Shown here piece after piece: positions 7,294-32,607 of a stretch of DNA of 45,657 nucleotides. The translations under genes were made by a program, and so were the position numbers. The stretch covers positions 1 to 45,657 of IMG/VR virus record IMGVR_UViG_3300025781_000843; one strand, written 5' to 3'. The notes beneath the pieces are model-generated. The model was not told where the DNA came from. It saw only the letters and a list, made by a program, of their open reading frames with translations, and made no database searches. Origin of the DNA: a virus. Numbering within the stretch: the stretch's first letter is position 1; each line of letters opens with the position of its first letter.

Positions 7294-7316
7294 AAATAAC
7301 ACATACTATATAAACA

Positions 7317-7360: not shown

Positions 7361-7394
7361 AAACTGTTATTTTAGCTATAAGTTATTAAATTTC

Positions 7395-7402
7395 AATAAA
7401 TA
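7395..7402 (+). promoter_or_regulatory. late promoter-like element for the gp21 protease gene
   Basis: AATAAATA differs from the TATAAATA consensus only at the first base. It lies after the terminator at 7317-7352 and 30 nt before the gp21 start, so it can restart late transcription for genes 21, 22 and 23. Confidence 0.65.
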
Positions 7403-7432
7403 TCTATAGGCACTTAGATAATAAGGTACCAA

Positions 7433-8071: not shown

Positions 8072-8087
8072 CAAGGAGTAATGTCTG

Positions 8088-9302: not shown

Positions 9303-9320
9303 TTAGGAGAATATATTAAA

Positions 9321-10520
9321 ATGAGTAAGAACCTCTTTGAAACACATTGGGCAGCAACCAAAACAGCCCTCTGCGAAGGTCTAACAGGCAATCGCAAGAA
9401 GGTTATGGAAGTAGTCCTAGAAAACACCAAGAAGGACCTCTCTTCTAAGAGTGGTATACTTTTTGAAAGTGCAACAGCTGGCTCAACAAGCGCAGGTAAC
9501 GTTGCTACTTTAAACAAAGTTATCCTTCCAGTAATACGTCGCGTTATGCCAACTGTTATTGCTAACGAAATCATCGGCGTTCAACCAATGACTGGCCCAG
9601 TTGGCCAGATCCATACTCTACGTGTTCGTTATGCTGACACCTTTGGTGCACCAGCAGGCGTCGCAGCAGGAACAGAAGCACTATCTCCTTTCGAGATTGC
9701 ACGTTTCTATTCAGGTAACGGCGATAGCAACACACCAAAAGCTGCACCAGTAAGCGTACTAGAAGGTACAGCTGGTAAGCGTTTGAACATCCAGGTTTTG
9801 AAAGAAACTGTTGAAGCAAAGACTCGTAAGCTCAGCGCTCGTTGGACTTTTGAAGCTGCTCAGGATGCTCAGGCACAGCAGGGAATCGACATCGAAGCAG
9901 AAATCATGGCAGCTCTTGCACAGGAAATCACTGCTGAAATCGATCAGGAAATCCTTGTTTCACTACGTACACTAGCTGGAACAACATTAACATACGATCA
10001 AGGTGCTGTATCAGGTACTGCAACTTACGTTGGTGACGAACATGCTGCTCTAGCAGTTCTAATCAACCGTGGTGCAAACTTGATTGCTGCTCGCACACGT
10101 CGTGGTGCTGGTAACTGGGTTGTTGTAAGTCCAACTGCTCTTACAATCCTCCAGTCAGCAACAACTTCAGCATTTGCTCGTACAACTGAAGGTACATTCG
10201 AAGCTCCAACTAACACTAAATTCGTTGGTACACTCAACAACAGCATGAGAGTCTATGTTGACCAGTATGCTGCTGATGACACTAACGTTCTTGTTGGTTA
10301 CAAAGGCCCAGGTGAGATAGACGCTGCTGCGTACTATTGCCCGTACGTTCCTTTAACAAGCTCAGGCGTCATTATTGATCCAAATACTTTCGAACCAGTT
10401 GTTAGCTTTATGACTAGATATGGTTATCTAGAACTCAGCAACACAGCAAGCAGCTTAGGTAACGCAGCTGATTACCTCGCAGGTATTGCAATCAATACTG
10501 CACATTTGAAATTTCTGTAA
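9321..10520 (+). CDS. 23: major capsid protein (T4 gp23-like)
   Basis: A 399-residue protein starting MSKNLFETHWAATKTALCEG. It carries the conserved gp23 blocks, including ATLNKVILPVIRRVMPTVIA followed by IGVQPMTGPVGQIHTLRVRY, and RWTFEAAQDAQAQQGIDIEA. It forms the hexamers of the HK97-fold capsid shell. The first 50-65 residues are the probable region removed by the gp21 protease. It is shorter than T4 gp23 (521 aa) because the T4 insertion domain is missing, as in many marine relatives. An AGGAG site stands 12 nt upstream. A strong terminator follows at 10560. Codon use is richer in C-ending codons than in the neighbouring accessory genes, as expected for a highly expressed protein. Confidence 0.96.
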   Translation: MSKNLFETHWAATKTALCEGLTGNRKKVMEVVLENTKKDLSSKSGILFESATAGSTSAGNVATLNKVILPVIRRVMPTVIANEIIGVQPMTGPVGQIHTLRVRYADTFGAPAGVAAGTEALSPFEIARFYSGNGDSNTPKAAPVSVLEGTAGKRLNIQVLKETVEAKTRKLSARWTFEAAQDAQAQQGIDIEAEIMAALAQEITAEIDQEILVSLRTLAGTTLTYDQGAVSGTATYVGDEHAALAVLINRGANLIAARTRRGAGNWVVVSPTALTILQSATTSAFARTTEGTFEAPTNTKFVGTLNNSMRVYVDQYAADDTNVLVGYKGPGEIDAAAYYCPYVPLTSSGVIIDPNTFEPVVSFMTRYGYLELSNTASSLGNAADYLAGIAINTAHLKFL

Positions 10521-10559
10521 AATATTGTTTTTACAAGAGTTTTTGTATAAATTTTGTAG

Positions 10560-10590
10560 AACTGGGAGCAATAGCTCCCAGTTTTATTTT
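10560..10590 (+). terminator. strong Rho-independent terminator after the capsid gene
   Basis: AACTGGGAGC (10560-10569) pairs perfectly with GCTCCCAGTT (10574-10583) around a 4-nt AATA loop, followed by TTTATTTT. It closes the head-gene transcription unit. Confidence 0.93.
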
Positions 10591-10647
10591 GTCTAAAATA
10601 GATCAAAGCCTTGTTGTTCTAATTAATCTAGTTAATTTTTATTATAA

Positions 10648-10676
10648 TTGACAATTACACCTTAACCTTATATATA
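10648..10676 (+). promoter_or_regulatory. sigma70-type promoter of the EDxHD endonuclease gene
   Basis: TTGACA (10648-10653), 17-nt spacer, TATATA (10671-10676). The ATG at 10683 starts 6 nt after the -10, where transcription should begin, and no ribosome site is visible: a leaderless mRNA is predicted. Confidence 0.65.
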
Positions 10677-10682
10677 TAATAT

Positions 10683-12248
10683 ATGCAAGATACAATTTTA
10701 GACAAAGTAAAAGATCTTATTAAAATTTCTAAGCCAGACGGCATTGTTACCAAATTGAGACATAATTCTGAATTATGGCCTATAATATTAGAATATACTA
10801 AGAATTTTCAATTTCAAAACAAGTCCGAACAAATATATTTTTATGCTGAGCAATTAAAATCGAAACCTCAATGTAAGTGTGGTCAACCTGTAACATTTGT
10901 ATCTATTGTGTTAGGATATAGAGAATTTTGTAGCAGAAGTTGTATATATTCTAAAGAAGCTGCATTAGAAAGACGTGTTGCTGCAATGAAACTCAATGGC
11001 GGAGTTGGATTAGCTAATCCAAAAACTTACCTAAAAGCTAAAGGTAAACTTCAAGAAAAATATGGTGAGGATGTTATAAATCCGGGACAAATCAAATCTC
11101 ATAGAGAGAGTATGATAATTAATAATCCTATGTTCTTAGAAGAAAACAAAAAGAAATTACAGAAAACATTTGAAGAAAAATATGGATTAGGTAGAAATAA
11201 TCCAGGAAGAAAAAATTGTACAGATACTCAACTCGATATTCTTATAAATGATAATAAATTTGCATCTATTGTTAAAGGTAAAAGTGCTGTAACAGTTGCT
11301 AACGAGACTGGACTAAATCATTCAACTATTATGAGAAGGGCATATAAGTTAAATTTAATAGATACTATGGATTATAAACCACCAAGTGCAATGGAAAATG
11401 ATTTAGCATTATGGTTAGATAGTATGAATATTGAATATCAAAGAAGAAATCGTAAGATCTTATCAAATCAATTAGAACTTGACTTTTATTTTCCGCAATG
11501 GAATTTAGCTGTAGAATTACACGGATTATATTATCATTCAGAGATAAGCGGTAAAAAAGACAAACGTTATCATCATCAAAAATATCTAGGATGTCAGATA
11601 AAAAATATACAACTTTTACAATTTTGGCAAGATGAATATTGGAAACATAATAATGTAATTCGAAGTAAAATTTTATATCTTGCTAATATTATTCAAAATA
11701 AAATACCTGCTAGAAAATGCAAGTTAATGGTACTCACAGATAGTGTAATTGAACGCGATTTTATGAATAAAAATCATATACAGGGTTTTGCAGATTATCG
11801 TCAATGGAGTTTAGGAGCATGGTATAATGAAGAATTGGTTGGGGTGATGTCATTTTCTACTCAAATGAAACGACTAGAACTGATTAGATATGCTACTAAA
11901 ATAGATGCAGTAGCCTCCGGACTATTTTCTAAAATGTTAAAAAAGTCAATTAATGAATTTAAATTTTCGGGACATATTGTAAGTTTAAGTGATAATAGAA
12001 TTAGTAATGGACGGTTATATTATAATAGCGGATTTACATTTGTAAATGAATCAACTCCCGGATATTGTTATACGTATGATTATGAAACTCGTATTAATAG
12101 ACAACAGTGTATGAAACATAAACTTATTAAAAGACATAAGTTAGATCCTAAAATTATCAACACAATAACAGAATGGGAATTGGCACAGAATTTAGGTTAT
12201 GATCGGTTATGGGACGTAGGAAAAAAGAAGTGGGTTATAAAAATTTAA
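10683..12248 (+). CDS. free-standing endonuclease of the EDxHD (Vsr-like) type
   Basis: A 521-residue protein. The N-terminal zinc-binding motif is CxC-16-CxxxC (C64, C66, C83, C87). It is followed by repeated EKYGxxNP units (about 126-175) and a helix-turn-helix-like segment (about 200-222). A Vsr-type nuclease core lies at about 237-290: E239, ELDFYF with D267, and AVELHGLYYHSE with H280/H285. The C-terminal 170 residues form another, unidentified domain. Such proteins are mobile homing endonucleases of phages that cut at allelic sites lacking the gene. It sits in an intergenic gap just after the capsid gene and has its own host-type promoter. A second, partial member with the same Cys spacing starts at 45206. 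Confidence 0.82.
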   Translation: MQDTILDKVKDLIKISKPDGIVTKLRHNSELWPIILEYTKNFQFQNKSEQIYFYAEQLKSKPQCKCGQPVTFVSIVLGYREFCSRSCIYSKEAALERRVAAMKLNGGVGLANPKTYLKAKGKLQEKYGEDVINPGQIKSHRESMIINNPMFLEENKKKLQKTFEEKYGLGRNNPGRKNCTDTQLDILINDNKFASIVKGKSAVTVANETGLNHSTIMRRAYKLNLIDTMDYKPPSAMENDLALWLDSMNIEYQRRNRKILSNQLELDFYFPQWNLAVELHGLYYHSEISGKKDKRYHHQKYLGCQIKNIQLLQFWQDEYWKHNNVIRSKILYLANIIQNKIPARKCKLMVLTDSVIERDFMNKNHIQGFADYRQWSLGAWYNEELVGVMSFSTQMKRLELIRYATKIDAVASGLFSKMLKKSINEFKFSGHIVSLSDNRISNGRLYYNSGFTFVNESTPGYCYTYDYETRINRQQCMKHKLIKRHKLDPKIINTITEWELAQNLGYDRLWDVGKKKWVIKI

Positions 12249-12264
12249 GTAGTATTGAAGATTT

Positions 12265-12294
12265 ATTGAACTCTTCTCCTAATACATAGTATCA
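12265..12294 (+). promoter_or_regulatory. possible sigma70-type promoter for the fadA-fadB-nagZ operon
   Basis: TTGAAC (12265-12270), 18-nt spacer, TATCAT (12289-12294). The spacing is slightly long and neither hexamer is perfect. The start at 12321 is about 26 nt downstream with a GGGG ribosome site. No late element was found here. Confidence 0.4.
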
Positions 12295-12320
12295 TTATAC
12301 AACAGAATAGGGGATAAGTA

Positions 12321-13526
12321 ATGGATTGCTATATCTATGACACAGTAAGAACACCGCGAGGCAAAGGTAAGCCCGACGGTGCATTACATGAAGTATCAAC
12401 TTTACGATTACTTACAACCGTTCTTGAGAGTATCAAAAATCGAAACAATATCACAGGACCAGAAGTTGATGATTGTGTTATTGGCTGCGTTGATCCTGTT
12501 GGGGAAGCCGGCGGTGATATAGCAAGAGCAGGTACAATTGCTGCTGGATATGGTAATGATGTCCCTGGAGTTCAAATTAATCGTTTCTGTGCATCAGGAC
12601 TAGATGCAGTTAACCTAGCAGCCGCTAAGATCATGTGTGGACAAGATGAATTGACAATTGGCGGCGGTGTTGAGTCAATGTCTCGTGTTGGACTAGGTGC
12701 AAGTGGTGGTGCTTGGCCTGCAGATCCATTTATAGCAATACCCTCTTACTTTATGCCACAAGGTGTTAGTGCAGACTTGATTGCAACCAAATACGGATTT
12801 GCTCGTAGTGACGTAGATGCATATGCTGTTGAATCACAGCGTCGTGCTGCCGCAGCCTGGGCAGAAGGTAGATTTAGTAATTCAGTGGTGCCTGTTCGAG
12901 ATTTGAACGGTGTAACAATACTTGATAACGATGAGCATATGAGACCAAATGCAACATTGGAATCAATGGGTGCATTAAAGCCATCATTTAAAATGTATGG
13001 AGAAATGGGCGGATTTGATGCAGTAGCGACTCAAGCATATCCAGCTATTGAAAAACTGGACTATGTGCATCATGCTGGTAATAGTTCAGGTATAGTTGAC
13101 GGGTCGGGTGCTGTATTACTTGGTACAAGAGAAGCAGGTAAACGACTGGGACTTAAACCACGAGCACGTATAGTTGGTTTTCAAAATATTGGATCAGAAC
13201 CTGCAATAATGCTTACAGGTCCAGTTGATGTAACCAATAAACTGTTGGCAAGACTAAAAATGAATATTGCAGACATTGATTTGTTTGAAGTCAATGAAGC
13301 ATTTGCTGCGGTTGTGTTGCGATACTTGCAAGCATTTGATCTTGATCCTGCTAGAGTTAATCCAAATGGCGGAGCTATTGCTATGGGACATCCACTAGGA
13401 GCAACAGGTGCAATGCTAGTCGGTCATGCTGTTGATGAACTTGAAAGAACAAATAAAAGTACTGCACTTGTAACACTGTGTATTGGTGCAGGTATGGGTA
13501 CTGCTACAATTATTGAACGAGTTTAA
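12321..13526 (+). CDS. fadA: acetyl-CoA acyltransferase / thiolase (FadA-like)
   Basis: A 401-residue, full-length thiolase. It cleaves 3-ketoacyl-CoA with CoA to give acetyl-CoA, the last step of beta-oxidation (or the reverse condensation). The key residues are all present: Cys90 in NRFCASGLDAVNLAAAKI, His357 in NPNGGAIAMGHPLGATGA, Cys387 in CIGAGMG, and the HHAGNSSGIVDGSGAVL and EVNEAFA blocks. Nothing is truncated, so it should be active. It lies 13 nt upstream of the FadB-like gene, as in bacterial fad operons, although the bacterial order is usually fadB before fadA. This is a very unusual gene for a phage. Base composition is as AT-rich as the neighbours, so it is not a recent, unamelioriated acquisition. 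Confidence 0.93.
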   Translation: MDCYIYDTVRTPRGKGKPDGALHEVSTLRLLTTVLESIKNRNNITGPEVDDCVIGCVDPVGEAGGDIARAGTIAAGYGNDVPGVQINRFCASGLDAVNLAAAKIMCGQDELTIGGGVESMSRVGLGASGGAWPADPFIAIPSYFMPQGVSADLIATKYGFARSDVDAYAVESQRRAAAAWAEGRFSNSVVPVRDLNGVTILDNDEHMRPNATLESMGALKPSFKMYGEMGGFDAVATQAYPAIEKLDYVHHAGNSSGIVDGSGAVLLGTREAGKRLGLKPRARIVGFQNIGSEPAIMLTGPVDVTNKLLARLKMNIADIDLFEVNEAFAAVVLRYLQAFDLDPARVNPNGGAIAMGHPLGATGAMLVGHAVDELERTNKSTALVTLCIGAGMGTATIIERV

Positions 13527-13539
13527 TGGGGAGCTAGTG

Positions 13540-15678
13540 ATGAATTTAGTAAACTTTGAAATTGAGTTTGATAAACATGTTTTAGTTGCATATTGGAACA
13601 TGCCCGATCGCTCCGTTAACGTAATTAATGATAGTGTAATGGATGAACTTGATCAAATTATTAATCAAGTAGTAGTCGATGAAAGCATTAAAGGATGTGT
13701 TATAGCATCTAAGAAAGCAGCGTTCTCCCCTGGTGCAGATTTGTCTTTGCTTGAGGAAAGCAAAAGACTGTATGAGAAAACCGTTGCAGAACAGGGAGAA
13801 GAACAAGCTAACGTATGGTTCCTCAACAATTCTAGCAAGTTGTCGAGATTACTACGAAAGCTAGAAACTTGTGGAAAATCATTTGCTTGTGCAATACACG
13901 GTTACTGCTTTGGTGGATCATTTGAATTGGCACTTGCATGTCATCATCGTGTTATGGATTCGAACGCTAAGATTGGATTACCCGAAGTTAAAGTGGGTAT
14001 ATTCCCAGGTGCAGGTGGTACGCAGCGTGTGGCAAGATTACTTGAAACTGAACAAGCACTTCAATTCATGCTGAAAGGTAATCCAATGGATGCAGTAAAA
14101 GCATTGAAATCAAATCTCGTACATGAGATTTGTGCTGAAATTGATCCTGTAGAACTTGCTAAACAGTGGGTTGAGGATCAGGGAGATCCAGTTGCTCCCT
14201 GGGATAAGAAAGACTTTAAGAACCCGTCGGGTAAGGTATTTTCTCCTAAAGGTATGATGATTTGGCCGGCAGCTAATGCTATCTATAGACGTGAAACATA
14301 CAATAACTATCTCGGAGCAAGAGCAATTCTCACAGCAGTATTTGAAGGACTTCAACTGCCAATAGATAAAGGCTTAATGGTCGAGTCGAGATTATTTGCT
14401 AATATTGTTCGTTCAAAAGAAGCAGAAGCAATGATACGCTCACTGTTTCTATCCAAGAATGAGTTAGACAAAGGTGCTCGTAGACCAGCTGATATTCCGC
14501 CTGTTACCCTTAATAAGATTGCTGTTATTGGTGCAGGGTTAATGGGTGCAGGTATTGCTTATGTATCTGCACAGAACGGATTAGAAGTTGTACTAGTTGA
14601 CAGCACACAAGAACGTGCTGATGCAGGTAAAGCATCAGTAGACAAGTTAGTATCTGGATTGGTTTCTAAAAAGCGTACTACTGTAGAAGCTAAAGATGCA
14701 TTGCTTGCTAAAATTACAGCAACAGCAGACTACTCTACGTTACAAGGAGTTGATCTTGTTGTTGAAGCAGTTTTTGAAGATCGTGATGTTAAAGCAACTG
14801 TTATCAAAAATGTTCAAGCGGTAATTGGTTCTGAGGTTATATTTGCATCAAATACTTCTACACTTCCTATTACCAGTCTTGCTGAAAACTCACTTGATCC
14901 TGGCAAGTTTGTTGGCATACACTTCTTCTCCCCTGTTGATAAGATGCAGTTAGTTGAAGTTATCAAGGGCAAAAAAACAGGTGATCTTGCACTTGCTACT
15001 GCACTAGACTTTGTGCGTATCATTAAGAAGACTCCCATCGTAGTTAATGACACTCGTGGATTCTACGCTAATCGTTGTGTACTGAATTATGTGCGTGAAG
15101 GACATCTTATGCTTGCGGAAGGGATACCTGCTGCAATGATTGAAAACTGTGCTAAAATGGCAGGTATGCCAGTTGGTCCGCTAGCACTTAACGACGAAGT
15201 TGGACTCGACTTAGGTTGGAAAATACTTCAAGCAACTAAGAAGGATCTGGGCAATGATGCAGTAGATCCGGTACAAGAATGCCTTTTACATTGTATGGTT
15301 GAAACTAACGAGCGCTTGGGTCGTAAAAACGGTCGGGGGTTCTACGACTATTCTGCAGACGGTAAGAAATCACTATGGACCGGAATTACAGACATATTTA
15401 AAACTGTAGTTGATCCAGATACTATTAATGTTGAAGAACTTAAACAGAGATTTCTTGTTGTTCAAGCAGTTGAAGCAGCTAGAACTATTGAAGAAGGAAT
15501 CATTACCGAGCAAGAAGCAGATGTTGGTTCTATCTTTGGATTTGGGTTCCCGCCTTTCACTGGAGGAACAATCTCATACATTAATCAAATGGGTAAACAC
15601 GCATTTGTTGAACTATGTGACAGTTTTGAAGCAAAGTATGGATATAGATTTAAAGCACCCGAATCCTTGCGTAAATAA
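13540..15678 (+). CDS. fadB: bifunctional enoyl-CoA hydratase / 3-hydroxyacyl-CoA dehydrogenase (FadB/FadJ-like)
   Basis: A 712-residue protein. The start at 13540 is chosen because GGGGAG stands 8 nt upstream; a longer frame overlapping the thiolase end is less likely. The N-terminal crotonase domain (about 1-200) has the two catalytic glutamates in GGSFELALACHHRV and IGLPEVKVGIFPGAGGTQR. The central Rossmann domain (about 325-500) has GAGLMGAGIA for NAD and the catalytic His in GIHFFSPVDKMQLVEVIKG. The C-terminal domain (about 510-700) ends with FGFGFPPFTGGTISYI. Length and order match the alpha subunit of the bacterial beta-oxidation complex, which hydrates enoyl-CoA and oxidises 3-hydroxyacyl-CoA. 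The partner thiolase is directly upstream. All active-site residues look intact. Confidence 0.93.
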   Translation: MNLVNFEIEFDKHVLVAYWNMPDRSVNVINDSVMDELDQIINQVVVDESIKGCVIASKKAAFSPGADLSLLEESKRLYEKTVAEQGEEQANVWFLNNSSKLSRLLRKLETCGKSFACAIHGYCFGGSFELALACHHRVMDSNAKIGLPEVKVGIFPGAGGTQRVARLLETEQALQFMLKGNPMDAVKALKSNLVHEICAEIDPVELAKQWVEDQGDPVAPWDKKDFKNPSGKVFSPKGMMIWPAANAIYRRETYNNYLGARAILTAVFEGLQLPIDKGLMVESRLFANIVRSKEAEAMIRSLFLSKNELDKGARRPADIPPVTLNKIAVIGAGLMGAGIAYVSAQNGLEVVLVDSTQERADAGKASVDKLVSGLVSKKRTTVEAKDALLAKITATADYSTLQGVDLVVEAVFEDRDVKATVIKNVQAVIGSEVIFASNTSTLPITSLAENSLDPGKFVGIHFFSPVDKMQLVEVIKGKKTGDLALATALDFVRIIKKTPIVVNDTRGFYANRCVLNYVREGHLMLAEGIPAAMIENCAKMAGMPVGPLALNDEVGLDLGWKILQATKKDLGNDAVDPVQECLLHCMVETNERLGRKNGRGFYDYSADGKKSLWTGITDIFKTVVDPDTINVEELKQRFLVVQAVEAARTIEEGIITEQEADVGSIFGFGFPPFTGGTISYINQMGKHAFVELCDSFEAKYGYRFKAPESLRK

Positions 15679-15695
15679 TGTAAAGGAGAATGGTT

Positions 15696-16652
15696 ATGGC
15701 TAAGAAAGCATTTATATGTGCATTACACAGTTCTACATTAGGAGACGATGAAAAGAAGTTTCTAACTGAGCACCAACCGTGGGGTATAATTATCTTTGGT
15801 TATAGTGCTAGGACCAAAGAGCAACTAACTACACTTATTAACGATATTAAGAGTGTTCTCGGTAATGACACTATGATTCTTGTTGATCAAGAAGGCGGTC
15901 GTATTCAACGACTTAAACCGCCAGCTTGGAAAGTACACCCTGCTGCAAGATCATATATAGATGCTGCACCCAATCATTTGGTAACTAATGAAACATTACT
16001 AGAAGTAATGAATGGTGCACAAGATATAGCTACTGAATTAAAAGAAGTGGGAATAAATGTAGATTGTTTTCCTGATATGGATGTTCCGGTACCAGGTGCA
16101 AATGATGTAATAGGTGATAGAGCATATTCTGAAGATACTGCTCAGGTTGCTATACTAGCAAGAGCTGCTGCATTTGGATTAATGCAGGGAGGAGCTTTGC
16201 CAGTTATTAAACACATGCCAGGACATGGTAGAGCTACTGTAAATAGTCATTTAGCACTACCTACTGTAACAGAGTCTATTGACGTTTTAAAGAGTACAGA
16301 TTTCCTACCATTCAAATTGAACGCAGATTTACCAATGGGCATGGTAGCTCATATTGTATATTCTGCAATTGATTCAACTGAGCCTGCATCGCAATCAGCA
16401 AAAGTTGTAAATGAAGTAATCAGAGAACATATCGGATTTAAAGGTATATTAATGACAGATGATTTGACTATGGAGGCATTAAGTGGTACTTATGCTGAAC
16501 GTGCCCAGAAAGCTATTGCTGCTGGAATTGATATAGTTCTTATCTGTGATGAGTTCAAGGACCAGTCAACAATAGATGTTGCTAATAATGTTCCAGAAAT
16601 TTCAGATAGAGTAGCTGAATTAACTAAAGCTGCATTAGCTAGAATTAGTTAA
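15696..16652 (+). CDS. nagZ: GH3 beta-N-acetylhexosaminidase (NagZ-like) with altered catalytic dyad
   Basis: A 318-residue cytoplasmic enzyme (no signal peptide). The start at 15696 is chosen because AAGGAG is 7 nt upstream of it but only 1 nt from the alternative ATG at 15690. NagZ removes GlcNAc from anhydro-muropeptides in cell-wall recycling. Visible motifs: DQEGGRIQR (64-72), KHMPGHGRATVNSHLALP (172-189) and LMTDDLTMEAL with the nucleophile in D255/D256. NagZ enzymes normally carry Asp-x-His (DSH) as the acid/base dyad; here Asp is replaced by Asn183, with His185 kept. It follows fadB after 17 nt and should be co-transcribed. Its stop codon overlaps the stop of the leftward porin gene by 4 nt. 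Confidence 0.87.
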   Translation: MAKKAFICALHSSTLGDDEKKFLTEHQPWGIIIFGYSARTKEQLTTLINDIKSVLGNDTMILVDQEGGRIQRLKPPAWKVHPAARSYIDAAPNHLVTNETLLEVMNGAQDIATELKEVGINVDCFPDMDVPVPGANDVIGDRAYSEDTAQVAILARAAAFGLMQGGALPVIKHMPGHGRATVNSHLALPTVTESIDVLKSTDFLPFKLNADLPMGMVAHIVYSAIDSTEPASQSAKVVNEVIREHIGFKGILMTDDLTMEALSGTYAERAQKAIAAGIDIVLICDEFKDQSTIDVANNVPEISDRVAELTKAALARIS

Positions 16653-18025
16653 AAATGTGCATTTAGTCTAATCCCGAACACATTTACTGGACCTCGGTCT
16701 TTGTTATAACCGGGGTTCATAAGTCTTTGATAATCAAACGTAACATCTAAGTTTTTGTTAAATCCTAACTTGTAGTAGGCTTCTAGATCTTTTTCAGGAC
16801 CATAGTTTAATGCACCGTCACCTATATTCAATCCTGTACCACCTGCTGATAAGAATCTAATCTGAGGTCCGTTGATAGCGTTAATTGATCCTGCAATACC
16901 AAACTCATCAAACGGTCTATTCCATGCCTGACCTGCTGCTACAAAACCCATAGCCCAAGAACGATCAATGTCAGTATTAGCAATAGTTTCTATTCTACCA
17001 TCGCTCATACCTGCACGTACAAACATGCCGAGGTTTGGTATTATTTGTTGTTGCCAATTGAACCCTACACCCATTTTGTTTGTTCTGGTTCTTAGATCTG
17101 ACTGTGCAGGAGGACTATTGCCATTGAAATTTTCATATGCTAATAATTGATCTAATACAGCGTATTTGCCCCAATTCTCATACGCTAAGAGTTTTAAAGA
17201 ACCTCGTTGACCAAGTATTTCGTAGCGATGTTCAAACTCCATAACAGCACCCCATTGATTGAAGATCTGTCGATCAAAGTTCATAGCTCCCGGGTATTGT
17301 GGCAATTCGAACACACCAGCTCTGAAGATGTTGTTACCCTTCTTGAATTCTGCAGCCGCACCCCATGTATAACCCCATTGATCTTGTGCATAGTTAAACG
17401 ATCCGATACTGTTAAAGGATAGATTTATAAACCCTTGTGTGGGATCGTGTGCATAGATATTGTCATTAAAAATATCGCCTACATTAAACTTACCAACGGT
17501 AAAGACAATACGATCTTTGCTAACCTTACCTCTCAATTGATTCTCAGTTGATGCAAGCACTTGGCTTCGTGCACCAGTCTTGGGATCGTAAACATAATCG
17601 CCGCCCAAGTTGATAGTTTGTTTAAAGTATAGACGCTGAAGCTCTACATATGGCGTACTGGCACCTTGTCCGACAATACCATTTGGATAACCAGCAGCAC
17701 CATTTGAAGTACCACCTATGCCATAACCCGATTGCAGTGCAGGATTTGCAAAAACTTCTGCACCCTCCCATAGTTTAACACCCACAAACAAGTTGTTCAT
17801 AGATGTAAATCTAGCTTCACCGTAAGATGGTAAACTGTTTTGTCCATCATATAGTGCTGGAAAACGCGGATATCCTTGTACAAATTGCACAGCCTGACCG
17901 TGAACACTCCATCTGTAATTTTCGTCACTATTGATCAAAGGTTGACTAGTAACGTCATCTGCTGATGCTGATACAACTTTTAAACTTAATAAAAGTCCAA
18001 CAGCAATCGAACGTGATCGTAACAT
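16649..18025 (-). CDS. OprB-type carbohydrate porin, copy A
   Basis: A 458-residue protein with a signal peptide (MLRSRSIAVGLLLSL core, likely cut after ASA at residue 22). The mature part is an outer-membrane beta-barrel of the proteobacterial OprB/carbohydrate-selective porin family: LFVGVKLWEGAEVFANPALQ, VGKFNVGDIFNDNIYAHDP, QWGYTWGAAAEF and the end MNPGYNKDRGPVNVFGIRL leading to a terminal Phe, the signal for BAM-mediated insertion. OprB porins let sugars diffuse across the outer membrane. The start codon overlaps the stop of the upstream porin gene (TAATG), so the two are translationally coupled. The gene is intact. Porin genes are highly unusual in phage genomes. Confidence 0.9.
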   Translation of the reverse strand: MLRSRSIAVGLLLSLKVVSASADDVTSQPLINSDENYRWSVHGQAVQFVQGYPRFPALYDGQNSLPSYGEARFTSMNNLFVGVKLWEGAEVFANPALQSGYGIGGTSNGAAGYPNGIVGQGASTPYVELQRLYFKQTINLGGDYVYDPKTGARSQVLASTENQLRGKVSKDRIVFTVGKFNVGDIFNDNIYAHDPTQGFINLSFNSIGSFNYAQDQWGYTWGAAAEFKKGNNIFRAGVFELPQYPGAMNFDRQIFNQWGAVMEFEHRYEILGQRGSLKLLAYENWGKYAVLDQLLAYENFNGNSPPAQSDLRTRTNKMGVGFNWQQQIIPNLGMFVRAGMSDGRIETIANTDIDRSWAMGFVAAGQAWNRPFDEFGIAGSINAINGPQIRFLSAGGTGLNIGDGALNYGPEKDLEAYYKLGFNKNLDVTFDYQRLMNPGYNKDRGPVNVFGIRLNAHF

Positions 18026-19422
18026 TAAAAGTTAGTCCTTAATCTAATACCAAATATATTAGCAGGCCCTCGATTTTTACTTAGATTTGGATTTGCTACC
18101 AATTGATAGTCAAATGATAAATCTACATGATCATTAATACCTATTCTATAATAAGTCTCTAGATTCTTTTCTGCACTGTAATTTTTATTACCGTCACCTT
18201 CTATTCCGATTGTACCATTTGGTAGCACAGCTCTGACACCTTTCATACCAGCATACCCGCCACCTATACCAAACTCATCTAGAGGACGATTCCATAACTT
18301 GCCAGATAATACAAAGCCACCTGATATGCTTTTATTAATGTCCTTATAATCAAAAGTTTTATTATCAACACCTGCACGTAAGAAAAAACCAATATTTGTT
18401 ACAATTTGCTGTTGAATGTTTATTCCCATTCCTAATTTGGTTCGTCGTAATTCATTTTTAACAATAGTTGGTACAACATCTGTATCCTTGTATTGGTATA
18501 AATTATCTCCTAGACTATTAAGATACCCATTATCTTGATAACCTATAAACTTAATACTACCCGGTTGTCCAAAAAACTTATCATGTCTGATTTCAAATTC
18601 TCCAATTGCCTGGTACTGATTAAGCGGCTTAGGATCAACATTAACACTGTTTCCGGGCAACGATCCTTGAAAGAGTCCCACTCTGACCGTCCACCAATCG
18701 TTAGTCCATTCTAAAGCACCACCGTATGTAAAACCCCACAAGTCCCACGCAAAATCTACACTATCTAATCCATTGAATGTCCAATTCAAAAAATGTCTAC
18801 TGGGATCGTGCGCATAAATGTTGTCATCAAAAATATCTGCTACAGAGAATTTACCAATAGTAAATCTCAGACGATTCTTACTTACCTTACCGGTTAGTTG
18901 ATTTTGTAGTTTTTCAAGTGCAACATTTCTAGCACCTTCTAACTGTGCTTCAGATCTGTCATTATCTAAATTGATTTCCTGTTGTAAAAATAATCGTTGC
19001 AATCTAAGATATGGACTAGAACTTTTCATTTTTGGTGTTGTAACATTAACTGAATTTTCAACATTGAGGTAATCAGAAATATTATATCCCTGCATAATTT
19101 CTGGATTAGCAAAAACAGTTGCACCGTCCCAGATATTCATTCCGAGGAATAAATTAGACCTAACTCCGTTTACCACGTGCCCGCGGTTTATATTATTTGG
19201 TTTAGTATCATCATTGAATGCAGGATATCCTTGTGTAACATCAGTCATTGTCCAAGTATACGTTAACGTATTAAGTGGGTTAGATTTATCTAGCATCATT
19301 GGTATTGGAACATGTTGATCCTCTGTATGCTCAGCATGTAACGGTGTTGAAATCAAGCAAAATGTAAACAACAGTGCCAGACTGTTGCTGTAAAAATTGC
19401 GAGTTTCAGCTTTTAGTTTCAT
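18025..19422 (-). CDS. OprB-type carbohydrate porin, copy B
   Basis: A 465-residue paralogue of the downstream porin. The signal peptide is longer, with a hydrophobic core at 14-26 and a probable cut after LHA (residue 30). Matching blocks are LFLGMNIWDGATVFANPEIM, IGKFSVADIFDDNIYAHDPS, WGFTYGGALEW and the end NPNLSKNRGPANIFGIRLRT with terminal Phe. It is the first gene of a two-gene operon. The host-type promoter at 19430-19457 ends 7 nt before the ATG and no Shine-Dalgarno is visible, so the mRNA should be leaderless. The two copies differ widely in the loop regions, which suggests an old duplication or two separate captures with different pore specificity. Confidence 0.9.
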   Translation of the reverse strand: MKLKAETRNFYSNSLALLFTFCLISTPLHAEHTEDQHVPIPMMLDKSNPLNTLTYTWTMTDVTQGYPAFNDDTKPNNINRGHVVNGVRSNLFLGMNIWDGATVFANPEIMQGYNISDYLNVENSVNVTTPKMKSSSPYLRLQRLFLQQEINLDNDRSEAQLEGARNVALEKLQNQLTGKVSKNRLRFTIGKFSVADIFDDNIYAHDPSRHFLNWTFNGLDSVDFAWDLWGFTYGGALEWTNDWWTVRVGLFQGSLPGNSVNVDPKPLNQYQAIGEFEIRHDKFFGQPGSIKFIGYQDNGYLNSLGDNLYQYKDTDVVPTIVKNELRRTKLGMGINIQQQIVTNIGFFLRAGVDNKTFDYKDINKSISGGFVLSGKLWNRPLDEFGIGGGYAGMKGVRAVLPNGTIGIEGDGNKNYSAEKNLETYYRIGINDHVDLSFDYQLVANPNLSKNRGPANIFGIRLRTNF

Positions 19423-19429
19423 TACTTTT

Positions 19430-19457
19430 AATATAGCATCTTACCAAAATTTGTCAA
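19430..19457 (-). promoter_or_regulatory. sigma70-type extended -10 promoter of the porin operon
   Basis: On the minus strand TTGACA (19452-19457), 16-nt spacer ending in TGC, then TATATT (19430-19435). It is a near-consensus host promoter, so the porins are probably expressed early in infection. The ATG begins 7 nt after the -10. Confidence 0.75.
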
Positions 19458-19468
19458 TGCGTGTTAAC

Positions 19469-19496
19469 ATTGTGCTTGCTAAATATCAAGCACAAT
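19469..19496 (+). promoter_or_regulatory. hairpin with late promoter-like element in its loop
   Basis: ATTGTGCTTG (19469-19478) pairs perfectly with CAAGCACAAT (19487-19496); the 8-nt loop is CTAAATAT. The late-type element GCTAAATA (19478-19485) spans the loop. Transcription from it would begin near 19491, inside the right arm, so late mRNA lacks the hairpin while read-through mRNA contains it. The GGAG ribosome site (19500-19503) lies 4 nt after the stem. Confidence 0.65.
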
Positions 19497-19510
19497 AATG
19501 GAGTCAATTT

Positions 19511-19900
19511 ATGGCTGTAGGATATAACTGGACCTGGGGTCCAATGAAAGTGGGATATGTTAATAATACTCCGGATGTTGTTACTGGTATAGCATGGATT
19601 TGCATAGCGATAGATCCCGATTTTAGCTATGACATACATGGTAAAGAATCTGGAATTTTGCTTGCGCCACCGCCAGATCAACAAAATTTTATCAAACTAA
19701 GCGATATCACAGCTGATATTGTAAACAGTTGGATAGTAAATGGATTAGATACTGCTGCTATAGAAGCAACATGTAATGAGTATCTTCAACAACAAATAGA
19801 TTCGATAGTCAGTACTGTAGCAGTACCAGATGGCGTATCTAACATAACAGTTGTAGCACCTGATCCATTATCTACTAATGCAACCGGGTCAACTTTGTAA
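19511..19900 (+). CDS. small conserved phage protein, probable virion protein
   Basis: A 129-residue protein starting MAVGYNWTWGPMKVGYVNN. The N-terminal beta-rich half, with Trp-rich WTW and the phrase TGIAWICIAID, resembles a conserved family of small hypothetical proteins common in marine T4-like phages that often lie near structural genes. The C-terminal tail (about 95-129) is Val/Ala/Pro/Ser-rich and probably disordered. No catalytic motif. The late promoter-like element within the hairpin at 19469-19496 and a GGAG ribosome site 7 nt before the ATG mark it as a late gene. It directly follows, in opposite orientation, the porin operon, and may mark the boundary between accessory and structural functions. 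Confidence 0.78.
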   Translation: MAVGYNWTWGPMKVGYVNNTPDVVTGIAWICIAIDPDFSYDIHGKESGILLAPPPDQQNFIKLSDITADIVNSWIVNGLDTAAIEATCNEYLQQQIDSIVSTVAVPDGVSNITVVAPDPLSTNATGSTL

Positions 19901-19942
19901 CGTTTTAGCACACGTTAGACTACTAATTAATAATATAAATTT

Positions 19943-19950
19943 AATAAATA
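19943..19950 (+). promoter_or_regulatory. late promoter-like element for the 471-aa gene
   Basis: AATAAATA, one base from the TATAAATA consensus, 30 nt before the ATG at 19981. The same variant and a similar distance are found before gene 21. Confidence 0.62.
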
Positions 19951-19980
19951 TTTCTAGACTTAGAGAGTTTGGACAATTAA

Positions 19981-21396
19981 ATGAAAATTAATGAAATTTT
20001 ATCAAAAAACAACAAAAATACAGAAAATTTAAATGAAGTTGCATTAACAGCAAGTCATTTAGTTAGACATAACGGTCAATATCTTATAAATGTAATAGAT
20101 AAAATAATGAACGGCGGCGAGTTTCCGATTGTGGGAAAATATCAGTCAACTTATGGTAAAACTGTGACATTTGATCCGTCGCAAGCTAAAGTTTTAAAAA
20201 AATTATTTTATCTAAATGGTGATCCTAAAAAAGTAAAAATATCAACTGGTGGCAACATTATTCCGCCTGAACCATTGAGAATGATTACGTTAAAAACCAC
20301 ATCTGGACAAAATATTCCAACTGGTGCATTAGAAAAAACTGCTGATATCAAAGGAAAAGATGTAGATTATAATCTTGGAGATATTGGAGAATTTGCCATT
20401 GCAATAGCTGTATATACAAGATTTATTAAAAATGGCGAAACAGTTAGTATTGCTGATGTTGTTCGTATTATTAAAAAATTAAAATTTGGTTATAGTAAAA
20501 CTGGGTCATCTGGTATTGCCGATGTGAGCAGTAAAATTACCTGGCCAAAAGGCAAAGTTGACGAAATTTCTTTAAATTCAGTTTTACCAAGAAGAAGCAT
20601 GGATTATATTTTAAACAATATAAAAGCAACTGGTAAGATTGAAGAACAAATAATACAAGCTACATTTAACGGTGCTATTATGTATGCTAACGATAACGTT
20701 AAAGTTACTAATGGTATAGCTAGTATTAGCAAAAATAAAAAAACCAATTTTATCAAAATATCATGCGACGGGGTTAGTGATCAAAAAGGTACTAAAGCAG
20801 ATGTAATAATGAATATTGACGGAACACCAATTAACATTGTTAGCGCAAAAGTTGGTAGAAGCCAATTAGGACAGGCAAGCGGGCACAATTTTGATAAACA
20901 AAGGTTATTCTTTAAAACTGTTTTTAACGAAAATGTGAGTTCTTTTAAAACATCATGGGGAGAAACACATAAAGAACACGATAAAGTTCTTCAAGCAATT
21001 TGGAATAAAATTAATCCTAAAATTGTAAGAGCTTTAGCTGGTGATAACGCACAAAAAGAATTACCAATTGTAAAACAACTAGCAAATGGATTAATTAAGT
21101 ATAGTAATACAGCAACAGCAGGTGATGTTGACATTGTTAAGCTCATTGCAGTTCCTGGTAGCCCCGGTTATAAACTTTTAAAAGTTGATGAAAGATTATA
21201 TGATGCCCTTAAACAAATAAATCTTATAGCAGTACCCGGTTCTAAAGGTGTTGCAATATATGGAATCTATAACAATAAAAAAATTCTGCTCATGAAATGT
21301 AGAAGTTATCATAGTAAAGTCGGAAACACCGTTAGAACTATAATAGAGGGTGGTGATCTACTAGACATAATGGCCGAGGTTGCTGATGAAAAATAA
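19981..21396 (+). CDS. unknown late protein, possible packaged nuclease-fold protein, 471 aa
   Basis: Starts MKINEILSKN, an N-terminus like the short leader of several head-associated proteins in large myophages. No signal peptide or membrane segment. Around residues 265-300 there is a block KGTKADVIMNIDGTPINIVS followed by AKVGRSQLGQASG. The spacing D...xAK resembles the core of PD-(D/E)XK nucleases, but the Glu is replaced by Ser, so this is only a hint. The phrase LIAVPGS occurs twice near the C-terminus (about residues 386 and 418). Preceded by a late promoter-like element, so it should be made late. The function is not known. It ends 10 nt before the stop of the converging glycosyltransferase gene. 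Confidence 0.72.
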   Translation: MKINEILSKNNKNTENLNEVALTASHLVRHNGQYLINVIDKIMNGGEFPIVGKYQSTYGKTVTFDPSQAKVLKKLFYLNGDPKKVKISTGGNIIPPEPLRMITLKTTSGQNIPTGALEKTADIKGKDVDYNLGDIGEFAIAIAVYTRFIKNGETVSIADVVRIIKKLKFGYSKTGSSGIADVSSKITWPKGKVDEISLNSVLPRRSMDYILNNIKATGKIEEQIIQATFNGAIMYANDNVKVTNGIASISKNKKTNFIKISCDGVSDQKGTKADVIMNIDGTPINIVSAKVGRSQLGQASGHNFDKQRLFFKTVFNENVSSFKTSWGETHKEHDKVLQAIWNKINPKIVRALAGDNAQKELPIVKQLANGLIKYSNTATAGDVDIVKLIAVPGSPGYKLLKVDERLYDALKQINLIAVPGSKGVAIYGIYNNKKILLMKCRSYHSKVGNTVRTIIEGGDLLDIMAEVADEK

Positions 21397-21405
21397 AGAT
21401 AAAAC

Positions 21406-22410
21406 CTAAAAAGGTAACGGTGGTTTTTCTTGAGATTTTGACTTATTTTCTATAGCATGCTTAGCAACCTTTTCTATATCATCAATCGTATTAGATATTA
21501 GATGATTCTCTAAAACATACTTGTAAGCACCATCTAGATCGAACTGTGATTTATCAAAGTTTCTTAGCAGTTCAATTAATTCGTCATCTGTTGTATAGGT
21601 CTTACCCCAGTCTTTGAGTAATGCTGCACCAGATCCATATCTAGCAATCCACGGAGTAGAATTCAACATACTTTCTAGCAATACCAAACCAAAACCTTCC
21701 TTGTAACTATGCATAACATAACAGTCAGCTTCAGAAATAGCACTCATTACATCTGCTTTATCTTCTATCATTAATGGTATAATTCCCGGTGATGCAGCTG
21801 GCATTAGATTGCTACGATTATCATAGCCAGTAGTTACTAGTACTGCATCTTTTATATTGGCTTTTTTGAATACCTCTGTTAATTCTTTCATAGCTTTATT
21901 ATGCCAGTATCCGCCGCAGGACAAGAACATTGGTCCTTGTATATTATACTTGGCCTTGAAGCCCGGTTTGCCAATACTATCATGGTGTTTAATACCGTGT
22001 CTGATATTAACACCTTTACCTTCGGCACTGCTTCTTTTCAAACACTCAAGATCTTCTAATGTGCTCCACCCTACATATTTGCAACTGTTTATTGCTTGTA
22101 AACTTGCTGGACTATAAGAAGGAAGTATTATCATGTATAACATGGGATTAGGTATACTTCCAGCATTGCCCAATACAAAGTTTTGAACGTTTACATCTGC
22201 ACCGTGTACTATGATCAAGTCCCAGGGTTCCAATAATATATTTGCTTCATTTGTCAAAGTAACACCGTTTTGATTGCCCATATGTTCTCCGGCAAGAACA
22301 GCAACCTGATGACCTCTGCTTAACGCCTCTTCGGCCATTGCCTGTACAAAATATTCACTACCACCCGGAAACGGATAATATCTATGCACTACAAATAATA
22401 GTTTTGCCAT
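21406..22410 (-). CDS. GT4-type (GT-B fold) glycosyltransferase
   Basis: A 334-residue protein starting MAKLLFVVHRYYPFPGGSEYF, the N-terminal pattern of GT4 family glycosyltransferases. The C-terminal half has HSYKEGFGLVLLESMLNSTP, the E-x7-E donor-binding motif. FLSCGGYWHNKAMKEL fits the hinge region. It should transfer a sugar from a nucleotide donor to a growing glycan in the cytoplasm. It is slightly shorter than typical GT4 enzymes (350-400 aa). Last gene of the leftward sugar cluster; it begins 3 nt after the stop of the FkbM gene, and has only a weak ribosome site, so translation is probably coupled. The acceptor and donor cannot be told from the sequence. Confidence 0.85.
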   Translation of the reverse strand: MAKLLFVVHRYYPFPGGSEYFVQAMAEEALSRGHQVAVLAGEHMGNQNGVTLTNEANILLEPWDLIIVHGADVNVQNFVLGNAGSIPNPMLYMIILPSYSPASLQAINSCKYVGWSTLEDLECLKRSSAEGKGVNIRHGIKHHDSIGKPGFKAKYNIQGPMFLSCGGYWHNKAMKELTEVFKKANIKDAVLVTTGYDNRSNLMPAASPGIIPLMIEDKADVMSAISEADCYVMHSYKEGFGLVLLESMLNSTPWIARYGSGAALLKDWGKTYTTDDELIELLRNFDKSQFDLDGAYKYVLENHLISNTIDDIEKVAKHAIENKSKSQEKPPLPF

Positions 22411-22413
22411 TGT

Positions 22414-23037
22414 TTACCACCAAATCTTTGCGTCCACTCTATCAGTAACTAATTTATGCATAATATTATTTTTCCAATTGGTATACTTTTCAAGTTCTTC
22501 TGGCCAGAATCTTTCATGCCATTCTATAAACATTTGTTTTGCAAGCGTATGAGTATTATTCTCCAACATCTTAGTTAATGTAGCAAATTCGCTGCCTTCT
22601 ATATCCATTTTAATTACAACTTCATCATAATACTTGGTTCTTTTGTCAATAAACTCACTAAAGCATACGGTCGGAACTTCGACAGTAGAACAGTATTTTT
22701 CACCCATTTTCTCATACATTTCTGGCCATATACCAGTAAAGTACCCATCTTTTAAATCAAAGTTATTTGATCCGACATCTATATAGTCCTGTGCATCGGC
22801 ATCGTAGTAACAATCAATAGTAGTTGTTCCTTCTTGATCGCTCACAGCAGCATTGATAAATTCTATATCTAAACTCTTCAACCACTCATCAGATTCTAAT
22901 TTTTGTTGAGCAATTTTATATGTATAAGGATTAGCTTCAAAACAATATATTTTCCATGTATTATCAAAGTTATAGAATTTATTAAATTCAGATAAACCTT
23001 CAAATAAATGTGTTCCTAGATCATAAAATATTTTCAT
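22414..23037 (-). CDS. FkbM-family SAM-dependent methyltransferase
   Basis: 207 residues from the ATG at 23037, chosen over an upstream frame because AGGA stands 6 nt before it and the family's N-terminal block then starts the protein (MKIFYDLGTHLFEGL). Typical FkbM signs: YCFEANPYTYKIAQQKL (the acidic SAM-ribose binding residue), VVIKMDIEGSEFATLTKML, and IEWHERFW at the end. FkbM enzymes O-methylate sugars or other hydroxyls and are frequent in surface-polysaccharide clusters. The gene lies between two glycosyltransferase genes, so methylation of the same glycan is likely (inference). It overlaps neither neighbour; spacing is 3-7 nt. Confidence 0.87.
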   Translation of the reverse strand: MKIFYDLGTHLFEGLSEFNKFYNFDNTWKIYCFEANPYTYKIAQQKLESDEWLKSLDIEFINAAVSDQEGTTTIDCYYDADAQDYIDVGSNNFDLKDGYFTGIWPEMYEKMGEKYCSTVEVPTVCFSEFIDKRTKYYDEVVIKMDIEGSEFATLTKMLENNTHTLAKQMFIEWHERFWPEELEKYTNWKNNIMHKLVTDRVDAKIWW

Positions 23038-23044
23038 AGTAGTC

Positions 23045-24178
23045 CTAATAATTAAATAAGTTTGCAAGTAATCTATAATCTACTTTTAAAAATTCTAAAT
23101 TAGTATTATAGTCGTCTCGATTTCTACTCCAGGCTGTATTAATCGGCTTGTAATGTCCGTAATAGATATCGTCATTACGTCGCATCGGTGCATTTGACTC
23201 GTGTGTACCCCATTGTGATGACAAACCTCTACCGGGAATCATCATCCATTTTTGTCCAGCGTCTATGGTATTTGATGTGTCAACACAACAATAATGCTTG
23301 TAGGTACGATTTTTTGCAGCAATAGATGCAGCAGGTTTTTTATTTAAAAGATCGTAAGGTTCAATCCAGTTGGCTTTATAAAAGTATCCTGCTAGATTTT
23401 CTACTACAAGATTATCAAAGACTGTGTCTAAGTTTCCATTCTTGATCACTAACAATTCATCAATATCTGCATTTACTACAAGTTTAGCATTAGTCAGGTA
23501 ACGACGTTTAGCATGTTCAAACATGGTATGCTGAGCATAATCACTATCGAATGTATTATATGTATCACAGTCAAAACCCTGAGGACCATAAGGAACATTC
23601 CACTCTACCACTTTAACTTTAACACCAGTGTTTGCTAACTCTTTTTCTAGTTCACTAGCTGTATAATCAGTGCTAGCATTATCATATATCAAAACTCCGT
23701 TTATGCTGACATTGGCTTTATGGTATGCAATCCACTCTCTTATCCAAGATATGGGATTGTCCTTTTGTAGTGTTACTATAACTTTATGATTTTCAAAAGT
23801 ATTATCATATTTGTTTACAGCTATAGATGTATTGCTAGGTTGTAATATAACTGTATCTACTGGCTCAAAAAGTTCTAAAACAGTAATACTAGTTCTTTCT
23901 AAGTCTATACAAGTTAAGATTTTTATATCAACCCCGTCATTGGTTGTAAATTTGCAATTACCTATAATATGATCTTTGGTATTATACAAGCATGGTCCGA
24001 CCAGAAATATATAGTTGTTGGTAATTTGTACTGCATCGTACCATAAGTTATCCCAGTCAAAATTTTCATTAAATTTCATTCCATTAAAATAATCCTTACG
24101 TAATTCAACAGGTCTACTGGGTTCTCTTTTAAATCCCCAAATTTTTGGGTACTTTATAATGTTGCATTTATCAGCCAT
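23045..24178 (-). CDS. GT2/GT92-like glycosyltransferase, copy 1
   Basis: A 377-residue protein. Residues 1-25 form the block KYPKIWGFKREPSRPVELR, shared with the upstream gene. The GT-A domain runs from about residue 130: QKDNPISWIREWIAYHK, GVLIYDNASTDYT and NADIDELL with the DxD metal motif at D238/D240. This pattern fits the Glyco_tranf_2_4 / GT92 group. It should add a sugar using a nucleotide-sugar donor and Mn2+. It is a tandem duplicate of the gene at 24180-25328, but unlike that copy it keeps the catalytic motifs. The start codon follows the upstream stop by 1 nt and has no strong ribosome site, so translational coupling is likely. Confidence 0.83.
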   Translation of the reverse strand: MADKCNIIKYPKIWGFKREPSRPVELRKDYFNGMKFNENFDWDNLWYDAVQITNNYIFLVGPCLYNTKDHIIGNCKFTTNDGVDIKILTCIDLERTSITVLELFEPVDTVILQPSNTSIAVNKYDNTFENHKVIVTLQKDNPISWIREWIAYHKANVSINGVLIYDNASTDYTASELEKELANTGVKVKVVEWNVPYGPQGFDCDTYNTFDSDYAQHTMFEHAKRRYLTNAKLVVNADIDELLVIKNGNLDTVFDNLVVENLAGYFYKANWIEPYDLLNKKPAASIAAKNRTYKHYCCVDTSNTIDAGQKWMMIPGRGLSSQWGTHESNAPMRRNDDIYYGHYKPINTAWSRNRDDYNTNLEFLKVDYRLLANLFNY

Positions 24179-24179
24179 G

Positions 24180-25328
24180 TTACTGCCAATTCACTTTGCT
24201 TAAATTACTTTTAAGAGTTTCTAACACTTTTAAATTAATAGGATCTCTGGTATATTCGTCTCTTTTCCAACTCCAGTTGGTATTCATTGCTAAAAAATGA
24301 CCATAAGATATATCATTATTATGTCTCATAGGTGCATTAACACTATGAGGACCCCATTGGCCGTCCATAGCTAGTCTCGGTATTACAATATATTTTGTTA
24401 CTAATGATTGAAGGTTATTACTATCTGTACAATAATAATCAATATATTTTCTGTCTTTGAATGGTATTTTATCTGCTGAAATATTGTTTACTATGTCATA
24501 AGGTTCTATCCACGGGCCGTTAAATCTATAACCAGCTACACCTTCTTGTAACATGCAATCTACTATATTGTCTAAGTTACCGTCTTTAAGTAATAATAAC
24601 TCATCTGGAAAAAGATTGCTTGCTGATCTCGCACCTGTTAGATATTTTCTTTTTGCATGTTCTAGCATTGTTGGGTAGCTAAAATCACTATCCCACACCC
24701 AATTACCGCCACCAAAATCCACACCAAACGGTCCGTGCGGAACATCCCACTCTACAAGTTTAACTGTAACACCTAAATCTGTTAGCGACTCGTCAAGTTG
24801 TTCTATACTATAAATTGTACTGTTATTGTTATAGATAAGAAAGTGTTTGATACAGTGTATATCTCTATGATATGAAATCCAACCACGGATCCAACTGATT
24901 GGATTGTCTTTTTGCCCGGTTATTATAGTATGTTGGTCTGTAAAAATAGAATCATATTTTGAAATTTTTATAGTAACCGCACCCGGATGCATGGTTAACT
25001 CGTTTTTCCATCCAGATACCTGTATTATTGTATATCCAACTCTATCCATATCTATACATTTAGCTTTGAGTATTTCACCGCTATCTGATACAAATGCACA
25101 ATTTTTTTCAATATACTCTCGTGTATTAAGTAGAGGTGGCCCGATTAATATTATTATATTTGGATTAATTTGAAATGCGTCGTGCCATATATTATCCCAA
25201 TCAAACATCTCATCAAATGATGCACCTGTGTGACGATCATCTAATCTTAATTCTACTGGCCTGCTTGGCTCACGTCTGAATCCCCAGCTTGTGGGATATT
25301 TTATTACACTACAGCGGTCAATGGACAT
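24180..25328 (-). CDS. GT2/GT92-like glycosyltransferase paralogue with degenerate active-site motifs
   Basis: A 382-residue paralogue of the downstream gene, with the same N-terminal block (KYPTSWGFRREPSRPVELR) and the same QKDNPISWIRGWISYH motif. Two key sites differ: the donor-binding IYDNASTD of copy 1 reads IYNNNSTI here, and the metal-binding NADIDE reads NLFPDE (F240 in place of the first Asp). The reading frame is otherwise full-length and has no stops, so it is kept under some selection. It may be inactive and serve as a partner of copy 1, or use another mechanism. A GGAG ribosome site stands 6 nt upstream. It is followed after 1 nt by copy 1. Confidence 0.8.
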   Translation of the reverse strand: MSIDRCSVIKYPTSWGFRREPSRPVELRLDDRHTGASFDEMFDWDNIWHDAFQINPNIIILIGPPLLNTREYIEKNCAFVSDSGEILKAKCIDMDRVGYTIIQVSGWKNELTMHPGAVTIKISKYDSIFTDQHTIITGQKDNPISWIRGWISYHRDIHCIKHFLIYNNNSTIYSIEQLDESLTDLGVTVKLVEWDVPHGPFGVDFGGGNWVWDSDFSYPTMLEHAKRKYLTGARSASNLFPDELLLLKDGNLDNIVDCMLQEGVAGYRFNGPWIEPYDIVNNISADKIPFKDRKYIDYYCTDSNNLQSLVTKYIVIPRLAMDGQWGPHSVNAPMRHNNDISYGHFLAMNTNWSWKRDEYTRDPINLKVLETLKSNLSKVNWQ

Positions 25329-25340
25329 CTACTTCTCCGA

Positions 25341-26291: not shown

Positions 26292-26292
26292 T

Positions 26293-27962: not shown

Positions 27963-27964
27963 TG

Positions 27965-32567: not shown

Positions 32568-32607
32568 TTTTGCATTTATTAGGTATAACTTATAAAAGGT
32601 TTATAAT

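Follow-up and report, generated by a model that had tools for sequence, protein, structure and literature searches.

We analyzed a window of 45,657 bases, an IMG/VR fragment of a T4-like jumbo myophage encoding the portal gp20, the prohead protease gp21, the major capsid protein gp23 and the gp15 sheath stabiliser. Its capsid protein is 78% and 70% identical to those of Sinorhizobium phage Phosso and Pseudomonas phage PA5oct, respectively, and 93-95% identical to that of several viral contigs, the longest of 519 kb. Right of the capsid gene (9321..10520, plus strand; Pfam Gp23, E 2e-97) lies a block of ~8.9 kb in which genes for a homing endonuclease, FadA, FadB, NagZ, porin 2 and porin 1 follow each other in this order. 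A terminator-like hairpin located 3' of the capsid gene (10556..10587, plus strand) marks its left border, and the homing endonuclease (10683..12248, plus strand; phrog_3339, E 8e-75) its left end. On the same strand come a FadA-like acetyl-CoA C-acetyltransferase (12321..13526; over the cut-off of NCBIfam NF006090 and 75-78% identical to methanotroph genes) and a FadB/FadJ-like enoyl-CoA hydratase / 3-hydroxyacyl-CoA dehydrogenase assigned with Pfam (13540..15678; 60-63% identical to methanotroph fadB), for which the ATG is at 13540 and the listed TTG start (13483) lies upstream. A NagZ-like beta-N-acetylhexosaminidase (15690..16652, plus strand; over the cut-off of NCBIfam NF003740 and ~50% identical to Beijerinckiaceae genes) is convergent with the porins. 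The right border is formed by a late-promoter-like motif, CTAAATAT (19479..19486, plus strand), that precedes the gene of a DUF7936 protein (19511..19900, plus strand).

The two porin genes are arranged head to tail on the minus strand. Porin 1 (18025-19422, 465 aa) and porin 2 (16649-18025, 458 aa) each consist of a single OprB barrel, with 125.2 and 116.2 bits, respectively, against the Pfam OprB profile (PF04966), whose curated cut-off is 22.9 bits. In both proteins the match spans positions 24-372 of the 372 of the profile, that is near full length, and Pfam detected no second family in either of them. The stop of porin 1 and the start of porin 2 overlap by one base in TAATG, and the stop of porin 2 overlaps that of NagZ. 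Both frames are intact, retain the conserved OprB columns and end with a Phe, and both proteins have starts that, by inspection, look like signal peptides. The two proteins are 41% identical to each other. We could confirm the earlier note, which had described at these positions a paralogous pair of full-length OprB porins with a terminal Phe, coupled by TAATG. We found no OprB match for either porin among GenBank phages and none in a PHROG search, and searching the sequences of solved structures gave no convincing relative.

AlphaFold models of both porins were built from an alignment of 46 sequences, and reached a pLDDT of 80.4 for porin 1 and 86.6 for porin 2, with 16 strands each. Foldseek returned OprB of P. 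putida (4gey) as the top match for both. In VIA-align, porin 1 was superposed on 4gey with a Z of 31.9 (rmsd 3.3 over 362 residues) and porin 2 with a Z of 32.2 (rmsd 3.4 over 361 residues), while the next-best folds, all of them other porins, had a Z of ~22-22.7, about 9 units lower. The structure prediction proposed in the earlier note therefore yields 16-stranded OprB-type barrels with 4gey in first place. The phage porins share with the OprB family a profile score over cut-off, the 16-stranded barrel, the best fold match and the terminal Phe; they differ from 4gey in being phage-borne and only 17-19% identical to it in the structural alignment.

In two close relatives of the phage, L036 and L037 (a record of 518,643 bases), the capsid gene is directly followed by the DUF7936 gene, with a gap of only ~80-135 bases, which indicates that the ~8.9 kb block was inserted. 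Given that homing endonucleases also follow the capsid gene in L034, L039 and PA5oct (L006), the site (10521-10683 in the window) looks like an insertion hotspot. Two contigs from separately assembled metagenomes support the arrangement: IMGVR_UViG_3300025415_000122 matches positions 5367-24986 at 99.92% and 3300025389_001473 matches positions 6908-16404 at 99.99%. Hence both junctions, where the block is flanked by the capsid gene and other phage genes, are spanned by the window and by one further contig, and between contigs the porins differ by a single, synonymous SNP. Also, the GC3 of the porins (0.25-0.29) is like that of the phage's other genes, whereas it is 0.71-0.76 in the methanotroph homologues. 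With this phage-like GC3 of the porins, the block has probably long resided in phage genomes.

These data bear on the view that the porins are passengers of a chance capture of host DNA, or products of a chimeric contig, with no function for the phage. The absence of the block from close relatives and the host homologues of the cargo genes would fit such an origin. However, three contigs agree at 99.9% or more, one of them across both junctions, all frames are intact, GC3 departs strongly from that of methanotrophs, and porin 1 belongs to a deep phage-only clade with a porin from another viral contig (L185, see below). We therefore consider this view very improbable. Misassembly, which the earlier note had named as the outcome that would undo its reading, and bacterial contamination were rejected because separate contigs agree, GC3 resembles that of phage genes and the site is empty in the relatives. 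Contig L112 (19.6 kb) differs from the window at 16 sites, 13 of which cluster within 61 bases of the capsid gene (9863-9923), change capsid residues 186, 187 and 189, and look like a recombination patch.

Cellular relatives of the porins were then compared. The closest porins of a first genome scan were only ~38% identical, relatives of porin 1 within the bacterial family to which the top FadB match belongs were 41-48% identical, and porin 2 reached 51% to methanotroph porins in blastp. In a maximum-likelihood tree, as had been suggested for placing the porins, both phage proteins grouped with methanotroph sequences at 100/100, inside a methanotroph OprB clade, and the grouping was the same in two trees. 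One genome of this clade is, as its plasmid shows, that of Methylosinus sp. C49, and AmoC/PmoC was found in 10 of the 10 porin-clade genomes compared to 0 of 14 other genomes checked from the family. A new finding is thus that, on this tree, the nearest cellular relatives of the phage porins are OprB porins of pmoC-bearing methanotrophs. Since the porin clade lies in pmoC-bearing genomes and FadA is 75-78% identical to methanotroph genes, the host of the virus is likely a methane-oxidising bacterium. In methanotrophs fadB also adjoins fadA. The neighbours of the methanotroph porin genes vary between genomes, and with ORF calls that were unreliable in this GC-rich DNA they gave no hint of a substrate.

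Cellular members of the clade have lengths of 704-840 aa, and all 8 long forms that we scanned combine an N-terminal OmpA-like barrel (PF13505) with the OprB barrel. Pfam found no PF13505 barrel in either phage porin, which both have the OprB barrel alone. Thus, compared to two-barrel methanotroph OprB porins such as WP_348983927.1 of Methylosinus sp. C49, the phage porins share 41-51% identity over the OprB barrel, the 100/100 clade and the tandem arrangement (OprB pairs are present in two methanotroph genomes), but lack the additional N-terminal barrel and are encoded by AT-rich instead of GC-rich genes.

A wider scan revealed OprB in other viral contigs. First, a 95 kb contig (L185) encodes a porin with 45% identity to porin 1 over almost its entire length, and the two form a clade with 100/100 support. 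The DNA ligase and TilS-like neighbours of this porin are 84% and 61% identical, respectively, to their counterparts in G024, which carries pmoC and FadA-FadB. By these neighbours, the sibling of porin 1 belongs to another phage lineage, one that is related to a pmoC-phage. Second, the OprB proteins of L186-L188 are nearest to a Bacteroidota porin and have phage-type neighbours, for example RNA ligases in L188. Third, OprB is present in a further viral contig of 42.5 kb (L189). In L186 (6554-8510), L187 (7992-9948) and L188 (7459-9350), the Bacteroidota-type OprB adjoins a small secreted protein of 160-186 aa that looks like a small outer-membrane barrel.

To locate the differences between phage and cellular porins, strands and extracellular loops were assigned from the porin 2 model, and for each region we determined the identity to 13 methanotroph porins. 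With loop topology thus taken from a model and a permutation test that treats neighbouring sites as independent although they are not, the identity of porin 1 was 0.50 in the strands, 0.26 in the extracellular loops and 0.55 in the constriction loop (p 0.0002); for the L185 porin the values were 0.43, 0.25 and 0.51 (p 0.0004), and for porin 2 they were 0.48, 0.46 and 0.63 (p 0.37). No loop skew was seen in 12 of the 13 cellular porins, the exception (m12) having 0.68 in strands against 0.55 in loops, and five more distant cellular OprBs had 0.44-0.52 in strands against 0.39-0.44 in loops. Low loop identity together with retained strands and constriction loop therefore suggests that in porin 1 and its L185 sibling the surface has changed around a retained pore, the extracellular loops of porin 1 differing from those of methanotroph OprB. 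The loop divergence of porin 1 could also be due to relaxed constraint. A replacement of the surface or receptor porin, which the earlier note had considered, thus gains support from porin 1, whose loops are selectively changed as in the L185 sibling, and none from porin 2, which has no skew.

Also, the neighbourhood of the porins raises the possibility of auxiliary uptake, in which they would let more small solutes (sugars, organic acids or other nutrients) enter passively and so feed phage replication. They would then form one metabolic package with FadA-FadB, converting acyl-CoA to acetyl-CoA, perhaps from lipids or a storage polymer, and with NagZ, recycling peptidoglycan fragments. Such a role is possible in view of the conserved constriction loop and of FadA, FadB and NagZ, which adjoin the porins in the same inserted block; the OprB family and fold agree with it, and FadA-FadB are seen again in relatives of a pmoC-phage. 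However, the porins are on the opposite strand and not co-directional with the metabolic genes, no FadA, FadB or NagZ was found beside the L185 and L186-L188 porins within the flanks read, and the selective loop change of porin 1 is left unexplained. We thus hold uptake as the purpose of the porins to be rather unlikely. "Sugar" is here only part of the family name, the likely host being a methane oxidiser.

FadA-FadB were seen beside a clamp loader in L191, and in G024 (L113 1-3352; pmoC at L153 15833-16600) they adjoin a DNA ligase on a pmoC-bearing contig, so that phages of methanotrophs may often carry genes for beta-oxidation. Among GenBank phages, most matches to FadA and NagZ resemble bacterial sequence deposited under phage names. 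In common with the pmoC-phages (Chen et al. 2020, PMC7674155), the phage of the window is a large freshwater myophage that carries genes of host origin and probably infects methanotrophs, and with the pmoC-bearing G024 it shares FadA-FadB, while the G024 relative L185 has the porin 1 sibling. It differs from pmoC-phages in belonging to a separate, PA5oct/Phosso-like lineage. A Pfam scan detected no pmoC among the main ORFs of the window, which is a fragment, and pmoC was also absent from the relatives G005, G007 and G009. The main text of the pmoC-phage paper (PMC7674155) does not mention porins.

A sigma-70-type promoter-like site, TTGACA-16 nt-TATATT with an extended TG (19430..19457, minus strand), precedes the ATG of porin 1 by 7 bases and matches the consensus at 11 of 12 positions, so that the near-consensus extended -10 promoter reported before is indeed present as a promoter-like site. 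Three such sites occur in the window compared to 0.22 expected. Since the -10 hexamer ends at 19430, so near the ATG at 19422, the predicted porin 1 mRNA would have almost no leader or none at all, and we saw no Shine-Dalgarno sequence before the gene; the site would be the candidate driver of the porins. Motifs resembling T4 late promoters (ATAAATAT or CTAAATAT) lie ~27-37 bases before the genes at 2806, 7433, 19511, 19981 and 41367. Late motifs like ATAAATAT precede several structural genes but neither porin, so the putative early-type site of the porins contrasts with the late-type motifs of the structural genes.

That a major-type porin is present twice, with an early-type promoter-like site before the pair, would also suit a role in envelope maintenance, the phage supplying a major outer-membrane protein that stabilises the envelope during host shut-off, with neither uptake nor recognition at stake. 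Tandem porins in some methanotroph genomes go in the same direction. However, this explanation accounts neither for the loop change of porin 1 nor for the loss of the second barrel, and OprB is absent from 24 related records, many of them fragments. We regard it as improbable.

The reading that we favor, with a confidence a little short of even, is that the proteins are replacement porins, which keep solutes flowing and change the cell surface. Both porins would be exported during infection, and the BAM machinery would insert them as folded barrels in the outer membrane of the host, where they would partly replace or supplement the two-barrel OprB porins of the host. As the strands and constriction loop L3 are host-like, we propose that the pore is retained and that solutes would still enter the infected cell during host-gene shutdown. 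At the same time, the surface would be changed, the N-terminal OmpA-like barrel missing in both proteins and the extracellular loops being altered in porin 1. This may remove adsorption sites for competing phages (superinfection exclusion) or for the phage's own released virions, and porin 2, with host-like loops, would be mainly a spare channel. Surface replacement is suggested, first, by the selective loop divergence in porin 1 and the L185 sibling, which spares the constriction loop. Second, the missing extra barrel and the grouping of porin 1, at 100/100, with a porin from another phage lineage point the same way. Third, the intact frames, conserved OprB columns, synonymous-only SNP and early-type promoter-like site are consistent with it. 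Against it speak the lack of skew in porin 2, the predicted leaderless transcript of porin 1 and the FadA, FadB and NagZ neighbours, which point to metabolism. Our data show the integrity of the genes, their residence in a phage, the fold, the affinity to methanotroph porins, the missing extra barrel, the loop skew and the recurrence in phages, whereas we infer the host of the phage and the export, expression, timing and receptor effect of the porins. Solute uptake is the main rival of surface replacement, and the two could act together.

Phage-encoded porins as such are already known, since E. coli lambdoid phages encode them (Schnaitman et al. 1975, cited in PMC8065619). The remark in the earlier note that outer-membrane barrels are usually not among the genes of phages therefore needs a caveat: lambdoid phages have them, nmpC is located in prophage DLP12, and a viral structure library contains other predicted porins. 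Lc of phage PA-2 takes the place of OmpC, the receptor of the phage. Lc and NmpC share with our pair that a full outer-membrane porin is encoded in a phage genome, but they are OmpC-type and belong to temperate enterobacterial phages, whereas here two OprB-type copies with metabolic neighbours are carried by a jumbo myophage. In the literature searched, we found no OprB-type porins in jumbo methanotroph phages and nothing relevant on phage OprB or FadA-FadB cargo, and the OprB-type pair in a jumbo phage with a probable methanotroph host is a new form.

More broadly, and as a doubtful but possible extension, these proteins might be "stealth" porins, a phage-specific lineage in methanotroph jumbo phages: host-derived channels without the extra barrel and with new surface loops, common to distinct phage lineages, that would give the infected cell a new surface towards competing phages without starving it. 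A similar solution may have arisen in Bacteroidota-type phages (L186-L188), with OprB beside a small barrel. The pmoC cargo of methanotroph phages is studied for its effect on methane turnover, and the porins are another kind of gene taken from the host, here one directed at the envelope of the cell. The locus offers a concrete, testable case in which a jumbo phage may use a channel of its own to remodel the outer membrane of its host, and one protein pair separates the conserved pore from the changed surface. In addition, porins and FadA-FadB can serve as host markers for methanotroph phages.

Elsewhere in the window (21406-38915), we observed a large sugar and surface-glycan cluster with RfbH, a GDP-mannose dehydratase, several glycosyltransferases and two FkbM methyltransferases, along with acetolactate-synthase-like and lactate-dehydrogenase-like enzymes. 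Parts of this cluster are common to relatives without porins.
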